DNA of 64,000 nt from Glaciecola sp. HTCC2999. Lineage in GTDB: Bacteria; Pseudomonadota; Gammaproteobacteria; Enterobacterales; Alteromonadaceae. This document shows, piece after piece, positions 19,627-26,650 of the stretch. Location: NCBI RefSeq assembly GCF_000155775.1, contig NZ_DS989811.1, positions 378,914-442,913 on the forward strand. The letters run 5' to 3'. Position 1 is the first letter of the stretch, and the number at the start of each line of letters is the position of its first letter. The position numbers and the translations under genes were made by a program. Below the pieces are notes generated by a model, which saw nothing but the letters and a program-made list of their open reading frames with translations, searched no databases and was not told the origin of the DNA.

Positions 19627-19651
19627 ATTAGCGGTAAACTATACCGCTAAT
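19627..19651. terminator. Hairpin at the convergent ends of maeA and argA
   Basis: ATTAGCGGTA (19627-19636) pairs perfectly with TACCGCTAAT (19642-19651) around a five-base loop; the argA stop codon lies in the loop. Neither direction has a proper T-run, so termination here may be weak or depend on Rho; it could instead stabilise transcript ends. Confidence 0.4.
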
Positions 19652-20970
19652 GTAAACACTTTAGATTTGCGAGTGAAGTTATAGAGCTCTTGTTTTTGGG
19701 TCGGCAAATCACTGATACTGCCTTCAACAAAGCCTTGTTCTAAGAACCAATGAGCAGTCAATGTTGTTAACACAAATAAAGAGTGGAGCCCTTGCTGTAC
19801 TGCTTGGCTTAGTAAGGCCTCCAGCACCCTTTCTCCACGATTTGCACCGCGGTAGTCACCATGTGTAGCCACACAAGCAATCTCACCTAAGCCTTCATCT
19901 GGGTAAGCATATAAAGCGGCACACGCAATGATCATCCCATCACGCTCAATCACAGTAAATTGATCAATTTCATTCTCAAGACGTTCACGCGAGCGTTTGA
20001 CCAATGCACCAGATTCTTCCAGTGGCTTGATTAAACTTAAAATCCCTACCACGTCATTGATGTCTGCTGGGCGAAGCTGTTCATAATGATTTTCCATGAC
20101 CAATGAACCGGTACCATCTCGTGTAAATAGCTCTTTGATAAGCGCACCATCGATATCATAACTAACACAATGTGCACGGGGAGTACCTTTGTCAACACTA
20201 TCATGTAGTGCATGTATGACACTCGGCTCATTAACTAGATTACCTTGGTCTTGAAGCATCTCAAAGCGGGCAAGTTCAATGTTTCTATGGAGCACTAATT
20301 CAATACCTGAGTCAGTGCTCACTCGCTCCATAATCCCCTTGTATTCGGAGAAAGCAATCAGTTTGTCAGCACCTAGGGCGTAAGCAGCTTGCGTCGCTAC
20401 TTCTTCGTGAGATAAGTTGAACACTTCTCCTGTTGGAGAGTAACCAATCGGAGAAAGTAACACGATTGAACCATCGTTTAAATGGTCATTGATGCCTTGA
20501 GCATCAATTCGACGAACTGAACCGGTATTTTCATAATCTATCCCACCGCGAACACCCATAGGTTTAGCTACCACTAAATTACCTGAAGCCACACGAATTT
20601 GGGCGCCATGCATCGGTGAGTTGGCCAATCCCATCGTCAGTAATGCTTCAACTTGCGAACGCACTGAACCGGCTGCATCTTTAACGCATTCTAAGGTGGT
20701 TTTATCCGTGATACGAATATCATCAGCAAAACGCCCTTTGATGTTTCTTAGTGCAATACGTTCATCAATTTGAGGTCGTGCACCATGGACAATAACCACG
20801 CGCACGCCTAAAGTATTAAGTAGAGCAATATCGTGAATGATAGTAGGTAGGGTGGGGCTTTCAATCGCTTCACCGCTAAGCATCAATACGAAGGTCTTGC
20901 CACGATGGGCATTAATATATGGCGCTGAATTACGAAACAGCGTGATCATATCTTGATGTGACAACACCAT
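19639..20970 (-). CDS. argA: N-acetylglutamate synthase
   Basis: First step of arginine synthesis: acetylates glutamate using acetyl-CoA. The 443-residue protein has the classical two-domain layout: an N-terminal amino-acid-kinase-like domain (about 1-280, with VLMLSGEAIES and VVIVHGARPQID), which binds feedback arginine, and a C-terminal GNAT acetyltransferase domain (about 295-443, with GEIACVATHGDYRGANRGERVLE acetyl-CoA loop). It is last in argC-B-F-G-H-A, 12 bases after argH. Several marine relatives instead carry a short acetyltransferase fused to ArgH; here the full ArgA is a separate gene. Confidence 0.96.
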   Translation of the reverse strand: MVLSHQDMITLFRNSAPYINAHRGKTFVLMLSGEAIESPTLPTIIHDIALLNTLGVRVVIVHGARPQIDERIALRNIKGRFADDIRITDKTTLECVKDAAGSVRSQVEALLTMGLANSPMHGAQIRVASGNLVVAKPMGVRGGIDYENTGSVRRIDAQGINDHLNDGSIVLLSPIGYSPTGEVFNLSHEEVATQAAYALGADKLIAFSEYKGIMERVSTDSGIELVLHRNIELARFEMLQDQGNLVNEPSVIHALHDSVDKGTPRAHCVSYDIDGALIKELFTRDGTGSLVMENHYEQLRPADINDVVGILSLIKPLEESGALVKRSRERLENEIDQFTVIERDGMIIACAALYAYPDEGLGEIACVATHGDYRGANRGERVLEALLSQAVQQGLHSLFVLTTLTAHWFLEQGFVEGSISDLPTQKQELYNFTRKSKVFTLAV

Positions 20971-20982
20971 GTTAAATAACCC

Positions 20983-22377
20983 TTATGGCTGCTGTAGCAT
21001 TTGTGCTTGAACAAATGCTTGGGCAGATTTGACAGCTTGCGTTACAGGTTCAATACCCGTACCCCCTAGAATGTTGCGCTTATCGACTAAATATTCTAGT
21101 TGCAAAATAGGATACACATCGTCTTCAATGGTATCTGAGAATTGTTGTAGCTCAGCAATGCTCAATTCTTCCAGTGCTTTATTTTGACTAAGTGCAAAGA
21201 CGACCGCTTGACCCGAGATATCATGGGCAGTTCTAAACGGGATCCCTTTCCCCACTAGGTAATCAGCCAGTTCAGTCGCGTTAGCATAGCCTTGTTTAGC
21301 CGCTTGTTCACAACGAGCTTTATCAAGTGTTAAGGTCTCTAAGACTTCTACCCCAATAGACAAGCAGATATGCCATTGTGTCACTGCATCAATCGCGCCC
21401 TCTTTGTCTTCTTGCATATCTTTGTTATACGCTAGAGGTAAGCCTTTCATGGTCACTAATAAACCTTGTAATGCACCAAAAACACGGCCACATTTACCAC
21501 GCATGAGTTCTAACGCGTCTGGATTTTTCTTTTGTGGCATCAAGGAAGAACCTGACGTCACACTGTCGCCAAGTTTGATGAACTGGGCTTCACCTGAATT
21601 ATAGAAAATTAAATCTTCTGCTAAGCGTGACATATGCATCATGCTGGTAGAGGCGCAGAACAATAATTCTAATACAAAATCACGGTCGGATACGGCATCC
21701 AAACTATTCACACACGGGCCGTCAAATCCTAACTCACTAGCAATAGTTTCACGGTCTACCGGATAAGTTGTACCTGCGAGTGCACCACAGCCTAGGGGAC
21801 ATTGATTCATACGCTGTGCTAAGTCATCCAAGCGCGATAAATCACGCTTGAGCATTTCCACATACGCTAACGCCCAATGCGCAAAACGAACCGGTTGGGC
21901 ACGTTGTAAGTGAGTATAACCAGGTAAAATGACTTGAGTGTTGTGGTCTGCTAAAGTGACTAGCTGACTGATAAACGCCACTAAATCACTGCGGAGCATC
22001 GCAACATGATCTTTTACCCATAAACGAAAATCAGTCGCAACTTGGTCATTACGTGAACGTCCAGTATGCAGTTTACGGGCGACATCGCCTAGTTGTTCGG
22101 TTAAGGTCGCTTCAACAAAGCTGTGAATATCTTCTTCACCTTTGCCAATATAATCGAGCTCACCAGCTTCGGCTTGCGTGATCAGTGCGTTTAGTGCGTC
22201 TTCTAATTGTGTTTGCTCAGCAGACGTTAATACGCCTGCTTTACATAACGCTCGTGACCAGACAATCGAACCTGTCATGTCTTGAGTCGCCATCACCATG
22301 TCAAATCCGATTGAATCATTGACTTGACGGAACATATTACTGCTTCCACCGGCGAATCTACCACCCCATAATGCCAT
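20983..22377 (-). CDS. argH: Argininosuccinate lyase
   Basis: Last step of arginine synthesis: splits argininosuccinate into arginine and fumarate. The 464-residue length is that of stand-alone ArgH with no fused acetyltransferase tail. Landmarks: LWGGRFAGGSSNMF, the TGRSRNDQVATD motif, the catalytic TYPVDR/HLQRAQP region and the lyase-family signature GSSLMPQKKNPD. The AAKQGYANATELADYLV helix is also conserved. It lies 11 bases after argG and 12 before argA, within one operon. Cytoplasmic homotetramer in known members. Confidence 0.98.
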   Translation of the reverse strand: MALWGGRFAGGSSNMFRQVNDSIGFDMVMATQDMTGSIVWSRALCKAGVLTSAEQTQLEDALNALITQAEAGELDYIGKGEEDIHSFVEATLTEQLGDVARKLHTGRSRNDQVATDFRLWVKDHVAMLRSDLVAFISQLVTLADHNTQVILPGYTHLQRAQPVRFAHWALAYVEMLKRDLSRLDDLAQRMNQCPLGCGALAGTTYPVDRETIASELGFDGPCVNSLDAVSDRDFVLELLFCASTSMMHMSRLAEDLIFYNSGEAQFIKLGDSVTSGSSLMPQKKNPDALELMRGKCGRVFGALQGLLVTMKGLPLAYNKDMQEDKEGAIDAVTQWHICLSIGVEVLETLTLDKARCEQAAKQGYANATELADYLVGKGIPFRTAHDISGQAVVFALSQNKALEELSIAELQQFSDTIEDDVYPILQLEYLVDKRNILGGTGIEPVTQAVKSAQAFVQAQMLQQP

Positions 22378-22388
22378 GCGAATGACTC

Positions 22389-23612
22389 CTATTTTTCCAT
22401 GTCGTGCATTGCTTTAATGCGGCTTGATAAGCTAAATAAACGAATAAACCCTTCAGCATGAGATTGGTCATATACATCATCTGCACCAAATGTTGCAAAA
22501 TCTTCAGAATACAAGCTATTTGGCGATTGACGTTGTGTGACCGTTGCTGTGCCTTTATATAATTTAATAACAATTTCACCAGTAACAAGCTTAGCAAAAG
22601 ACTCTGCACCAGCAATCAGCGCATCATTTAACGCAGTAAACCAACGGCCGTCATACATAACATGCGCAAACTCTAAACCTAACTGTTCACGATATTTAAG
22701 TGCCGATTTGTCTAGCACAAGTGTTTCTAATGCTTTATACGCTTTGACCAACACAGTTCCACCTGGGGTTTCATAACAACCGCGTGATTTCATGCCAACC
22801 AAACGGTTTTCGACGATATCAATTCGTCCCACACCATGAGGAGCTGCTAAACGATTCAGTTCAACTAAGGCATCATAGGCGCCAAAAGCCTGACCATTTA
22901 CATGCGTAAGTTCACCTTCAGCAAAGGTTAAGCTAACTGCTTCAGGCGTATCAGGAGCGTCCATTGGATCTGTCGTTAATGTCCAAATACCTTTAGTCGG
23001 TTCGCACCAAGGATCCTCTAGCTCACCACCTTCATGAGAAATGTGCCATGCATTAGCATCTCGGCTATAAATTTTTGTGGCAGATGCTGTTGTTTTAATA
23101 TTACGTTCAGCAAGGTAATCTAATAAATCTTCACGTGAAACCATATCCCACTCACGCCACGGAGCAATAACCGTTAAGTCTGGGGCTAACGCTGCAAATG
23201 CACCTTCAAAGCGAACTTGGTCGTTTCCTTTACCGGTACAACCGTGGCATAGTGCATCTGCACCAACTTTACGAGCCACTTCTACTTGGGCTTTGGCTAT
23301 CACTGGACGAGCCATAGACGTACCTAATAGATATTCTCCTTCGTACACAGCGCCTGTTTTTACTGTAGGGAAGATGAAGTCTTTCACAAATTCTTGTTTT
23401 AAATCCATGATATAGCATTCACTCGCGCCACTCGCGATCGCTTTGTCATGTAAGCCTTCAAGCTCTTCATCGCCTTGACCTACATCCGCAGCAAAGGCGA
23501 CAACTTCACAGTCATAGTTTTCTTTTAGCCAAGGAATGATCGCAGAGGTATCCAAACCGCCAGAGTAGGCGAGGACGACTTTTTTGATAGCAGGTTTTGT
23601 TGTTGATTTCAC
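22389..23612 (-). CDS. argG: Argininosuccinate synthase
   Basis: Condenses citrulline and aspartate using ATP to give argininosuccinate. The 407-residue product has the ATP-pyrophosphatase P-loop AYSGGLDTS (15-23), the [13 protein letters not shown] motif, and the SKYYSRD-equivalent [10 protein letters not shown] plus [11 protein letters not shown] segments. It belongs to the shorter, type I form rather than the ~447-residue E. coli type. Located between argF and argH with gaps of 27 and 11 bases; part of the arg operon. Confidence 0.98.
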
Positions 23613-23639
23613 AGGTATACTCTTATAAATAAACAGATG

Positions 23640-24560
23640 TTAGTTGATCAAATTACCTAATAAGGTAATCAAAATAGCGTTTTGTGCGTGCATTCTATTC
23701 TCTGCCTGCATCATTAGCAATGATGCAGATGAGTCTATTAATGAACTAGTAATTTCTAAGTCACGATGAGCGGGTTGGCAGTGCATTACATATTCTGCTC
23801 CACACTGCTGCATCAGCGCTTCATTGACTTGATAGGGCATGAATTTTTCTTTAATCTCACTTAGCGGAGTATCATCACCCATCGATAACCATGTATCAGT
23901 GTAGATAACATCGGCGTTATCTAATTTATCAATATCGGTAAGTTGTGTGATAGATGCACCGGTTTGTAAGGCAAGTTCTTTCGCCATCGCGACAATCTCT
24001 TGGTCAGCTTCATGACCTATAGGAGTGACAACGACTTGATTGACACCAAGTAAGGCACCGACAATCAATAATGAATGAGTGACATTATTACCATCACCGA
24101 TGTACGCCATGGTTCGTCCCTTGACGTCGTGGAAGATCTCAGCCATAGCCAAATAATCTGCCAGTGCTTGGCACGGGTGATACAGATCACACAGCGCATT
24201 GACTACTGGTACAGATGCATGTTCAGCCAGCTCTTCTAGTGTTTCATGTTTAAATACACGTGCAATGATGCCATCACACCAGCAGGATAAATTAAGAGCC
24301 ATGTCTTTCGTGTCTTCACGACCTGCCAAGTTATTTGATTGGCTATCAAGATAAACGAGATGACCACCGAGTTTTTGGATCCCAATATCAAAACTTACTC
24401 GGGTACGAAGTGACGGTTTTTCAAATAATGCAACTAAGGATTTACCTCTTAATGCATCACGATAGTCGGAAGGCGACTTTTTAACATTCAAGGCTAAATT
24501 TAGCAGTGCTAGCATTTGCTCAGTACTGGTATCTTTGAATGTAAGTAAGTTATTTTGCAT
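23640..24560 (-). CDS. argF: Ornithine carbamoyltransferase
   Basis: Forms citrulline from ornithine and carbamoyl phosphate. The 306-residue product has the carbamoyl-phosphate site KPSLRTR (STRT equivalent), HPCQALADY, the ornithine-site VMHCQPAHRD and the DTWLSMGDD (SMG) loop. I place the start at the ATG at 24560, giving MQNNLLTFKD, with AGGA about eight bases upstream; a longer reading would overlap argB by about 85 bases and add a segment unlike the family. It follows argB by 19 bases. Confidence 0.97.
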   Translation of the reverse strand: MQNNLLTFKDTSTEQMLALLNLALNVKKSPSDYRDALRGKSLVALFEKPSLRTRVSFDIGIQKLGGHLVYLDSQSNNLAGREDTKDMALNLSCWCDGIIARVFKHETLEELAEHASVPVVNALCDLYHPCQALADYLAMAEIFHDVKGRTMAYIGDGNNVTHSLLIVGALLGVNQVVVTPIGHEADQEIVAMAKELALQTGASITQLTDIDKLDNADVIYTDTWLSMGDDTPLSEIKEKFMPYQVNEALMQQCGAEYVMHCQPAHRDLEITSSLIDSSASLLMMQAENRMHAQNAILITLLGNLIN

Positions 24561-24579
24561 AGTTCGTCCTGTCTGTGCG

Positions 24580-25359
24580 TTATTCGGGTAAAATATGAGT
24601 GCCAACACCTTGTAGGTGTGGACGTAAAAAAGCTTCTGAATCAGACCACGCACCAATGACAACACGACGCTTCAAGGTGTTGGCTGCAGTAAATGCCGCA
24701 TCAACTTTCACACGCATCCCATCAATTAAGACATTTTCTTGGGTGAGCGCATCGGCTTGAGCAGGAGTGAGGCTATCGACTTTATTTTTGTCTCCGTCCA
24801 GTACTCCTGGTACATCAGACAATAATAACAAATCAGCATGGAGTAAACAGGCAATAGCCGTTGCGGCTTGATCGGCGTTAACATTCACAAGTTGGCCATT
24901 GGGCAAAGCCCCAATAGAGTTGATAATGGGTAATTGCCCAATTTGTAATAAGGTTTTGGGGAGATGCGCTGCATGGGGTTGTGCATCGCCGACACAACCT
25001 AGCTGACGGTCAATAATTGTGCATTGTGTCATGTTGCCATCGGCTAAAGTAAGACCCACTGCAGCAATACCTTCTTTAATGGCAAAGCTAAGCATAGCGG
25101 TATTATATGTCCCGGCTAAAGCGCCTGCAACATATGGCATATGCGCTTCTGGGGTAACACGTAAACCGTTGAGTTTATGACTCTCTAAACCAAGGGCTTC
25201 TAATGTTTTTTGTACTCCAGCGCCACCGCCATGAATGATTACGACAGGGCGGATAGATTGAAGTTTGGCAATATTTTGAAAAAAAATGTCTTGGCCAACA
25301 GGTGCATCAATAAATGCACCGCCGACTTTTATCACAAGGGGTGTCGGTGAGGATGTCAT
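24580..25359 (-). CDS. argB: Acetylglutamate kinase
   Basis: Second arginine step: phosphorylates N-acetylglutamate. The 259-residue length matches the short, E. coli-like arginine-insensitive form; there is no N-terminal helix as in hexameric feedback-inhibited enzymes. Motifs: LVIKVGGAFID (nucleotide loop), VVIIHGGGAGVQ, the INVNADQAA-equivalent VNVNADQAATAIA and LLLSDVPGVL. The start codon overlaps the argC stop by four bases, so the two are translationally coupled. Identity is secure. Confidence 0.97.
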   Translation of the reverse strand: MTSSPTPLVIKVGGAFIDAPVGQDIFFQNIAKLQSIRPVVIIHGGGAGVQKTLEALGLESHKLNGLRVTPEAHMPYVAGALAGTYNTAMLSFAIKEGIAAVGLTLADGNMTQCTIIDRQLGCVGDAQPHAAHLPKTLLQIGQLPIINSIGALPNGQLVNVNADQAATAIACLLHADLLLLSDVPGVLDGDKNKVDSLTPAQADALTQENVLIDGMRVKVDAAFTAANTLKRRVVIGAWSDSEAFLRPHLQGVGTHILPE

Positions 25360-26393
25360 AGCTCACCTTTATGGTTTATGGTTGGGATTAACCCTGCACT
25401 GATGGGATACTGTTGTGATAAATTAGCGCATTGAACCGCCTGAGCCGCAGCACCTTTAAGTACATTATCAATCGCAGTCGTGACTACAATATACTGAGAT
25501 TCAGCATCATACTGGTAAAATACATCACAAAATGGTGTGTTCACGACATCATCGATTTTAGGAGCACGCTCGCGCAACCGTACACATGGAGTATCTGCAT
25601 AAGATTGGGTAAAGGCTGCATCCACTTGGGCTTGAGTCGTTCCTGGAGCTAGTTGAGCTGTAATTGTTGCGAGTATACCGCGTTTAAAATTACCTAAGTG
25701 CGGGGTGAAAATGATGGGTTGACCCAGGTAAGCTTCAATTTCTGGTTGGTGACGATGGCTTAATATGCCATAAGCTTGTAAAGATACCTCACAAAAACTA
25801 TTGACCATAGACGCCTTGCGACCCGCGCCACTGACACCGGATACTGCATTGATGATAGGCCGTGTATCTGTTAATAAAGACGCAGAGGCGAGTGGTTTTA
25901 ACCCTGTAAGGCTCGCGGTAGGATAGCAACCTGGGACGGCTATGACCGATGCCTCGGTAATTTGTTGAGGGTACCATTCCGCTAGGCCATAAACAGCTTG
26001 TTCACGCCACTCGTCACACTGATGTTCAAACCCATAATATTTAGCAAATACATTTTTATCGGCAATTCTAAATGCCCCAGATAAATCATAAATGACAGCC
26101 CGTTTACCGGCTAATACGGGCATCCAATCATGACTGGCTTCATGTGGCGTGGCTAAAAAGATAGCATCACAATTCAAGGCTATTTGAGCCAAAATTTCAT
26201 CATTAATCGGAATAAGGGGTAAGTCACACACGCCAATTAAATTGGCATGGCACTGGCTTACAAGTTGTCCTGCATCTGCAGAATGCTCTGATACATATAG
26301 GGTTTCTAGACTAAATCCAGGGTGCTTTGCTAAAATATCGACGAGTTCAGCACCGGTATAACCACTAGCGCCGATAATGCATGTTTTGATCAT
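25356..26393 (-). CDS. argC: N-acetyl-gamma-glutamyl-phosphate reductase
   Basis: Third arginine step: NADPH-dependent reduction of N-acetylglutamyl phosphate to the semialdehyde. From the ATG at 26393 the protein is 345 residues, starting MIKTCIIGASGYTGAELV (Rossmann motif GASGYTG). The active-site cysteine lies in VPGCYPTAS and the conserved VSGVSGAGRKAS follows. A GTG at 26447 would give 18 extra residues unlike the family, within the leader. First gene of argC-B-F-G-H-A. AGGA precedes the start by 12-13 bases, rather far. Upstream are a putative attenuator and tandem ARG boxes. The usual divergent argE is not present. Confidence 0.96.
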   Translation of the reverse strand: MIKTCIIGASGYTGAELVDILAKHPGFSLETLYVSEHSADAGQLVSQCHANLIGVCDLPLIPINDEILAQIALNCDAIFLATPHEASHDWMPVLAGKRAVIYDLSGAFRIADKNVFAKYYGFEHQCDEWREQAVYGLAEWYPQQITEASVIAVPGCYPTASLTGLKPLASASLLTDTRPIINAVSGVSGAGRKASMVNSFCEVSLQAYGILSHRHQPEIEAYLGQPIIFTPHLGNFKRGILATITAQLAPGTTQAQVDAAFTQSYADTPCVRLRERAPKIDDVVNTPFCDVFYQYDAESQYIVVTTAIDNVLKGAAAQAVQCANLSQQYPISAGLIPTINHKGEL

Positions 26394-26455
26394 GTTGTTG
26401 GGGATCCTGTCACTATGATGTCGTTGTTTATTCGATGATATTGTCACTTTATAAG

Positions 26456-26536
26456 AAAAAACACTTTTACCTTTACCAAAAAACAGACACGATGCTGACT
26501 TTCAGTAAAGGTAAAAAGTGAAGCTACTTCACTTTT
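26456..26536 (-). promoter_or_regulatory. Putative transcription attenuator in the argC leader
   Basis: Read on the minus strand, the leader first meets an antiterminator-like hairpin: arms 26527-26536 and 26514-26523, ten perfect pairs with a three-base loop. It then meets a terminator-like hairpin: arms 26505-26520 and 26462-26476, fifteen pairs with one bulged A and a 28-base loop, followed at once by six T (26456-26461). The two structures share 26514-26520 and cannot form together. A five-codon reading frame (26547-26530, MSVQK) ends inside the first stem but has no ribosome-binding site or arginine codon. The structures are seen directly; attenuation is inferred. Confidence 0.5.
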
Positions 26537-26599
26537 GCACACTCATTGCAAATGACTCAATAGTAGCCTAAGTAGGGAGAGTGTAAATCAACGTATAGT

Positions 26600-26650
26600 A
26601 TTATAGTACAACAATATAATATTTATGCAAATTAAATGTATAAATATTCA
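26600..26650 (-). promoter_or_regulatory. argC promoter with tandem ARG boxes (ArgR operator)
   Basis: TGTATAAATATTCA (26637-26650) matches the ARG box TGAAT-N4-ATTCA at 9 of 10 informative positions. A second box, ATAATATTTATGCA (26616-26629), matches at 7 of 10 and lies exactly 21 bases away, the standard centre spacing for an ArgR hexamer. On the minus strand TTGCAT (26625-26630) and TATAAT (26600-26605) could be the -35 and -10 with a long 19-base spacer; the boxes cover the -35. Arginine repression is a well-supported inference. Confidence 0.75.

Follow-up and report, generated by a model that had tools for sequence, protein, structure and literature searches.

The window, by which we mean the whole 64,000-nucleotide stretch of Glaciecola sp. 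HTCC2999 DNA that was analyzed, carries on its minus strand a six-gene arginine operon, and NCBIfam matches for argC, argB, argF, argG, argH and argA bear out the operon assignment of a first-pass annotation made from the sequence alone. Read from the promoter toward the operon, the region is composed as follows:

26637 to 26650, minus strand: ARG box 1 (TGAATATTTATACA), upstream half of a tandem, predicted ArgR operator, 13 of 14 positions matching the consensus
26616 to 26629, minus strand: ARG box 2 (TGCATAAATATTAT), 11 of 14 positions matching the consensus
26600 to 26605, minus strand: −10 element TATAAT, 6 of 6 positions matching
26574 to 26583, minus strand: CACTCTCCCT, start of the conserved leader region, identical in 10 of 10 genus genomes
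26562 to 26569, minus strand: region 1, 5' arm of the putative anti-antiterminator (AGGCTACT), homologous to GCTAYGC of the relatives
26534 to 26552, minus strand: inner hairpin TTTGC/GCAAA with the loop AATGAGTGT; TTTGC and GAGTGTGCAAA are invariant in leaders L001 to L006
26529 to 26546, minus strand: MSVQK frame, no Arg codon, reading frame unconserved in the relatives
26521 to 26528, minus strand: region 2, 3' arm of the putative anti-antiterminator (AGTAGCTT), placed by alignment, covariation and model match
26514 to 26536, minus strand: ten-pair hairpin competing with the base of the terminator, species-specific and absent from L002 to L006
26462 to 26520, minus strand: intrinsic terminator stem-loop, 15 pairs with one bulged T, from C26520 to G26462
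26456 to 26461, minus strand: terminator T run of six T
25356 to 26393, minus strand: argC, ATG at 26393 (TIGR01850, E 8e-109)
19639 to 25359, minus strand: argB, argF, argG, argH and argA, downstream of argC (NCBIfam matches, open reading frames)

Arginine operons of gammaproteobacteria are generally presented as ArgR-controlled, and the promoter of the window is of this type: It combines tandem ARG boxes, as judged by the ARG box consensus, with an argR gene that is found in 10 of 10 genus genomes, and ArgR binding is predicted. The box-to-box spacing of 21 nt is unchanged in the other argC leaders of the genus (L002 to L010; that of the window is L001); single ARG-like sites with 10 to 11 matches occur elsewhere too in the AT-rich leaders of the genus. 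The arrangement is akin to that of Escherichia coli argCBH, which is repressed by ArgR at tandem ARG boxes lying over the promoter; the argC leader of E. coli is not known to contain a terminator. Arginine control in the window species is probably carried by ArgR at these boxes, and transcription would start near 26593, about 10 bases ahead of the conserved CACTCTCCCT.

The leader itself contains the two hairpins that had been read as antiterminator and terminator. Both are real and lie on the minus strand where they had been placed: a hairpin of ten pairs, AAAAGTGAAG-TAG-CTTCACTTTT, at 26536 to 26514, and the 15-pair stem-loop that runs into six T. They share positions 26514 to 26520, as claimed. 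Folding of the 208-nt leader yields −47.3 kcal/mol as compared to −37.9 ± 3.83 kcal/mol for shuffled sequences (z −2.45; 3 of 200 shuffles as good). The argC-leader terminator did not appear in the output of a simple terminator scan of the window with a loop limit of 8 nt, and an Rfam search of the window gave no match over the argC leader. ACACTC at 26579 to 26584 and GAGTGT at 26539 to 26544 within the loop of the inner hairpin, both invariant in L001 to L006, could form a cross-leader pairing or a pseudoknot. The first-pass annotation had included neither the tandem ARG boxes nor the anti-antiterminator helix (26562 to 26569 with 26521 to 26528), nor the peptides with Arg-Arg that the leaders of the relatives encode.

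For a comparative analysis, argC leaders were gathered from the genus (10 genomes), the family, a set of named genomes and the order. From 163 distinct leaders, 82 without a TCCCTG-type motif or a T run were excluded, and alignments A1 (34 leaders) and A3 (24 leaders, without the genus) were drawn from the 81 that were retained. The terminator stem shows compensatory changes at 10 of 10 scored pairs in A1 and still at 10 of 10 in A3, which upholds the earlier proposal of an attenuator-type leader ahead of argC. Moreover, the whole-structure covariation score amounts to 0.432, compared with 0.256 for shuffled alignments (0 of 500 as high) and at most 0.173 with the pairing partners slid. Covariation had been proposed as a check on both stems, and the ten-pair hairpin does not pass it, because its fold in the sister species, L002, is weak (−0.5 versus −10.6 kcal/mol) and L003 to L006 form a different 5-bp pairing; as a conserved antiterminator it has to be given up. 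At the start of the conserved region, the family leaders as aligned recognizably contain TCCCTGCCT or the related CTCCCCTGGCT, which falls into three different peptide frames. In this stretch (26574 to 26583 of the window), TCCCTGCCTnGCT (CTCCCCTGGCTnGCT in Alteromonas) is kept across the leaders of A1 and A3 despite the three reading frames and survives loss of the ORF start.

Regions 1 and 2 can pair to an anti-antiterminator (helix 1:2), which was picked from an offset scan. In A1, 78% of its cells are paired and double changes occur at 3 of 7 pairs, with a compensatory change left at 1 of 7 pairs when the genus is removed (24 leaders); the pairing proxy has a mean of 0.845 over 56 leaders. 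At two inner pairs, 21 and 20 of the 34 rows lack complementary bases, which we count against an attenuator reading, and RNAalifold on A1 predicts the terminator alone, without helix 1:2. The helix that a leader-peptide attenuator needs at this position appears to be present, with RNAalifold dissenting. Support for a further pairing of region 2 with the terminator arm (2:3 antiterminator) was sought by masking the footprint of a stalled ribosome, scored for 65 of the 81 leaders at first and then for 56 of the 72 distinct ones: Terminator-base pairing rose in 22 and fell in 12 of these 56. We rejected this mixed outcome as proof, and a family-wide 2:3 antiterminator is not well supported by the modeling.

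The element can also be retrieved by model searches. R2, a model built from the 24 leaders without the window genus, finds the window element at 26455 to 26584 with an E-value of 6.7e-4 in 96 kb; at whole-genome scale the window leader scores E 0.018, and nothing else in its genome is matched up to E 1. Across the genus, R2 whole-genome scans match the argC site in 7 of 10 genomes and return no argC-site match in G001, G002 and G003, the leader L007 of G002 being matched when searched directly. Besides argC, further copies in the genus genomes are limited to weak matches, two of which are the opposite strand of the argC leader (G000, G008). With a second model, R1, and a cutoff of E 0.01, matches are obtained in 52 of 246 family genomes. 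For 47 of them the best match (E 1.1e-6 or better) lies just upstream of argC, many of these being the model's own sequences, and the remaining five have matches elsewhere only (E 0.001 to 0.007).

Outside the genus, argC leaders of the family commonly contain a short upstream open reading frame (uORF) with an in-frame CGA-CGA (Arg-Arg) pair. It occurs in 88 of 115 non-duplicate leaders, whereas 40 sets of dinucleotide shuffles contain 0.9 on average and never more than 4, and the reverse strand yields 1. The underlying set comprises the 152 of 187 leaders retained after removal of offset duplicates, and the count supersedes a first one of 94 of 123, for which the filter had removed only exact duplicates and leaders of less than 250 nt. 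The sampling of leaders is phylogenetically uneven; by genus, the uORF is present in 20 of 29 genera (61 of 88 genomes, L011 to L107), a count that covers L001 to L107 only. CGA is otherwise the rarest Arg codon in the argC genes, making up 21 of the 461 Arg codons in 55 of them. Examples of the encoded peptides are MISITSQFDSLPSFASMLYRR and MNCCHIEDFSQPGYAHHIMRR, each followed by a stop codon, while others, such as one ending in MHQLTQVYSSLPCYAPIAVRRRY and a stop, are given from an earlier TTG start. In two genera of the family, g73 and g74, the uORF is absent from all nine leaders (L079, L082, L086, L087, L089, L091, L094, L096 and L098), and in L015, from a Paraglaciecola MAG, the leader frame has TAG where relatives have TTG and lacks CGA-CGA.

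Beyond the family, 7 of 19 sampled families of the order contribute CGA-CGA uORFs, which were found in 14 of 49 leaders (shuffles average 0.55 and do not exceed 3); the Vibrio set has them in 0 of 19 leaders. In the seven families (L209 to L217, L225, L194, L195, L023, L030), some of the leaders encode quite different peptides and lack a clear intrinsic terminator in the scan, so other modes of termination may be used there. A strong intrinsic terminator was returned by the scan for 78 of 108 leaders with and 44 of 95 leaders without a CGA-CGA uORF, offset duplicates being retained in these counts; as a discriminator of uORF leaders it is too weak, and the 30 of 108 CGA-CGA leaders without a strong terminator in the scan count against an attenuator reading, as do the 44 leaders that have a terminator and no uORF. 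No known aptamer or T-box family was matched in Rfam by the window leader or by 8 related loci (the latter up to E 0.5), five related argC leader peptides had no Pfam match up to E 1, including PF10940, and four leader peptides had none in NCBIfam. On the strength of reading frame, codons and structure, the leaders of the relatives look like ribosome-mediated, arginyl-tRNA attenuators. Among the matches listed in the open-access literature, none describes an arginine biosynthetic leader-peptide attenuator for these bacteria; a comparative paper by Lopatovskaya and others from 2010 reportedly deals with attenuation of amino-acid operons and could mention arginine.

Within the window genus, CGA-CGA is absent (0 of 10 leaders) and the reading frame is found in several states. 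L007 has an ATG frame ending in VLR and a stop with one CGA, and a single CGA is likewise found in an ATG frame of L006; in L008 and L009 the one CGA lies further upstream, and L010 has the same codon and no standard start. In L003 to L005 the old frame still contains CGA and CGT and has neither ATG nor GTG; an internal TTG is situated ahead of both Arg codons in L003 and L005 and ahead of CGT alone in L004, so that some translation may persist in these three. In L001 and L002, finally, none of the frames that cross the conserved motif has a start codon ahead of an Arg codon. Among window-leader frames of at least 5 codons, Arg is found in only one, which starts with GTG, contains one CGT and extends through the terminator. 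A translatable leader ORF with Arg codons, as demanded of a leader-peptide attenuator, is by sequence missing from the window species. The first-pass annotation had set arginine-dependent ribosome stalling aside, which is in keeping with the window itself, but stalling is the likely mechanism in the relatives with their CGA-CGA peptides. The MSVQK frame to which it had pointed does exist at 26546 to 26529 and lacks Arg codons, but it is altered in L002 to L006 (alignment A2; MSVQIDK in L002) and was rejected as a leader peptide for being unconserved. A longer leader ORF starting from an upstream promoter was likewise dismissed for L001, since its three motif frames are each stopped within 39 nt upstream, with no start before an Arg codon.

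The spacing of the promoter elements suggests how the ORF start was lost. The two ARG boxes precede the conserved motif by 67 and 46 nt in L001, L002, L004 and L005 and by 68 and 47 nt in L003, compared with 118 and 97 to 147 and 126 nt in L006 to L010, so the motif-to-operator distance is 51 to 80 nt shorter in the L001 to L005 subclade than in its congeners. L001 to L005 are nested in the genus ArgC tree (support 92/82, a branch below the tree tool's star). The simplest account is the loss, in L001 to L005, of a spacer that held the ORF start; judged by tree and spacing, the window species is a derived case.

The terminator has persisted in this subclade: 15 of 15 pairs are retained in all of L001 to L005, and only 3 of 31 arm columns are variable as compared to 23 of 28 loop columns. 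The conservation of the arms suggests that the terminator still matters, because a simple relic should decay. In full-length equilibrium folding, the six bases that precede the T run have a pairing probability of 0.61 to 0.88 in the window species, with its ten-pair hairpin, and of 0.94 to 1.0 in L002 to L005, except for the last base in L003 to L005. As the ten-pair hairpin and the terminator are almost in balance in the window species, RNA folding should allow a fraction of its transcripts to read through at any arginine level.

We consider it fairly probable that the window leader is the descendant of a ribosome-mediated, arginyl-tRNA-dependent attenuator that no longer has its sensor peptide, arginine probably being sensed by ArgR. 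In the relatives, a ribosome would translate the short leader peptide with its CGA-CGA pair. With charged tRNA-Arg in short supply, it would stall at this pair and keep region 1 off region 2; because the stalled ribosome blocks the 1:2 pairing, the terminator before argC would be disfavored and the operon read. With ample charged tRNA, the ribosome would depart, helix 1:2 would form and the terminator would end transcription. The spacer with the ORF start is missing from the window subclade and, in the window species, so are the Arg codons of the ORF, with the terminator and helix 1:2 remaining. Anatomy and homology of the leader, the loss of the ORF start and the pairing have been shown by the comparison, while ribosome stalling, termination, read-through and binding of ArgR are predicted.

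Other readings of the window leader have to be weighed against this descent. It might still be a working switch, in which an RNA-binding protein, a small RNA or a ligand picks the ten-pair hairpin, or ACACTC:GAGTGT, over the terminator. This would agree with the retention of all terminator pairs in five species after loss of the ORF start, with the invariance of CACTCTCCCT and GAGTGTGCAAA in L001 to L006 and with the near-equal energies of the two states in the window species; yet no Rfam family matches the leader, the competing hairpin is unconserved and the terminator base, save for its last base in L003 to L005, is almost fully paired in L002 to L005, and with only five close species the conservation may reflect recency, so we regard such a switch as rather unlikely. 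The broader notion of a peptide-less attenuator whose terminator is under selection and which, read by a protein, a small RNA or a metabolite, tunes the arginine operon of this marine lineage atop ArgR and without a ribosome, we hold to be unlikely as well, and a touch more so.

Leader translation might instead persist from a non-standard or leaderless start, so that ribosome control continues in the window lineage. Frame 0 is indeed open through the conserved region in L001 (ending DLHSPYLGYY and a stop) and in L002 (ending ELHSPYLGYY and a stop), with an ATG of this frame at −210 in L002, but frame 0 is devoid of Arg codons in both and of a start codon in L001, and the L002 ATG falls within a likely −10 element, TATGAT, upstream of the inferred transcription start; this renders continued ribosome control quite improbable. 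That the hairpins arose by chance and have no regulatory role would fit an AT-rich leader, a moderate fold z-score of −2.45 and a ten-pair hairpin unique to the species. For the terminator, a chance origin is already contradicted by the covariation in 34 leaders and the retrieval by the genus-free model, whereas the ten-pair hairpin may be fortuitous; for the leader as a whole we deem chance highly improbable.

The inferred attenuator of the relatives can be set beside several known systems. The fungal arginine attenuator peptide, a nascent peptide that stalls translation in eukaryotes, likewise senses arginine via an upstream peptide but acts translationally and involves no transcription terminator. 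The leader-peptide attenuators of trp, his, leu, thr, ilv and phe share with the argC leader a terminator between promoter and first gene and upstream pairing alternatives, and with the relatives a short ORF containing codons for the end product, but differ in that the relatives use a CGA-CGA pair and that a usable ORF is lacking in the window member. PMC3223726 names six attenuators for Shewanella, none of them for arginine. In the Salmonella speF leader, arginine is sensed by two consecutive Arg codons of orf34, and the gene under control is that of ornithine decarboxylase, by way of Rho and RNase G (PMC6386406); the consecutive Arg codons are alike, whereas the argC element has an intrinsic terminator and its five peptides have no PF10940 (DUF2618) match. 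T-box control of arginine genes is named in PMC1262725 and also couples them at the RNA level to tRNA charging, but a T-box leader binds the tRNA directly. Moreover, in an assay with the his leader of Salmonella, de-attenuation was high for Arg-Arg pairs containing CGA, AGA or AGG, and AGG was highest as a single codon (PMC4046918), which favors the attenuator reading.

A CGA-CGA peptide before argC, in 20 of 29 genera of the family and in 7 of 19 other families, would put arginine biosynthesis under classical attenuation, the sensor being a rare, slowly read arginine codon. The window genus would then provide a graded series, from one Arg codon through Arg codons without a good start to none, of a switch that is being dismantled or rewired, in which the conserved terminator leaves room for a new, ribosome-free input.
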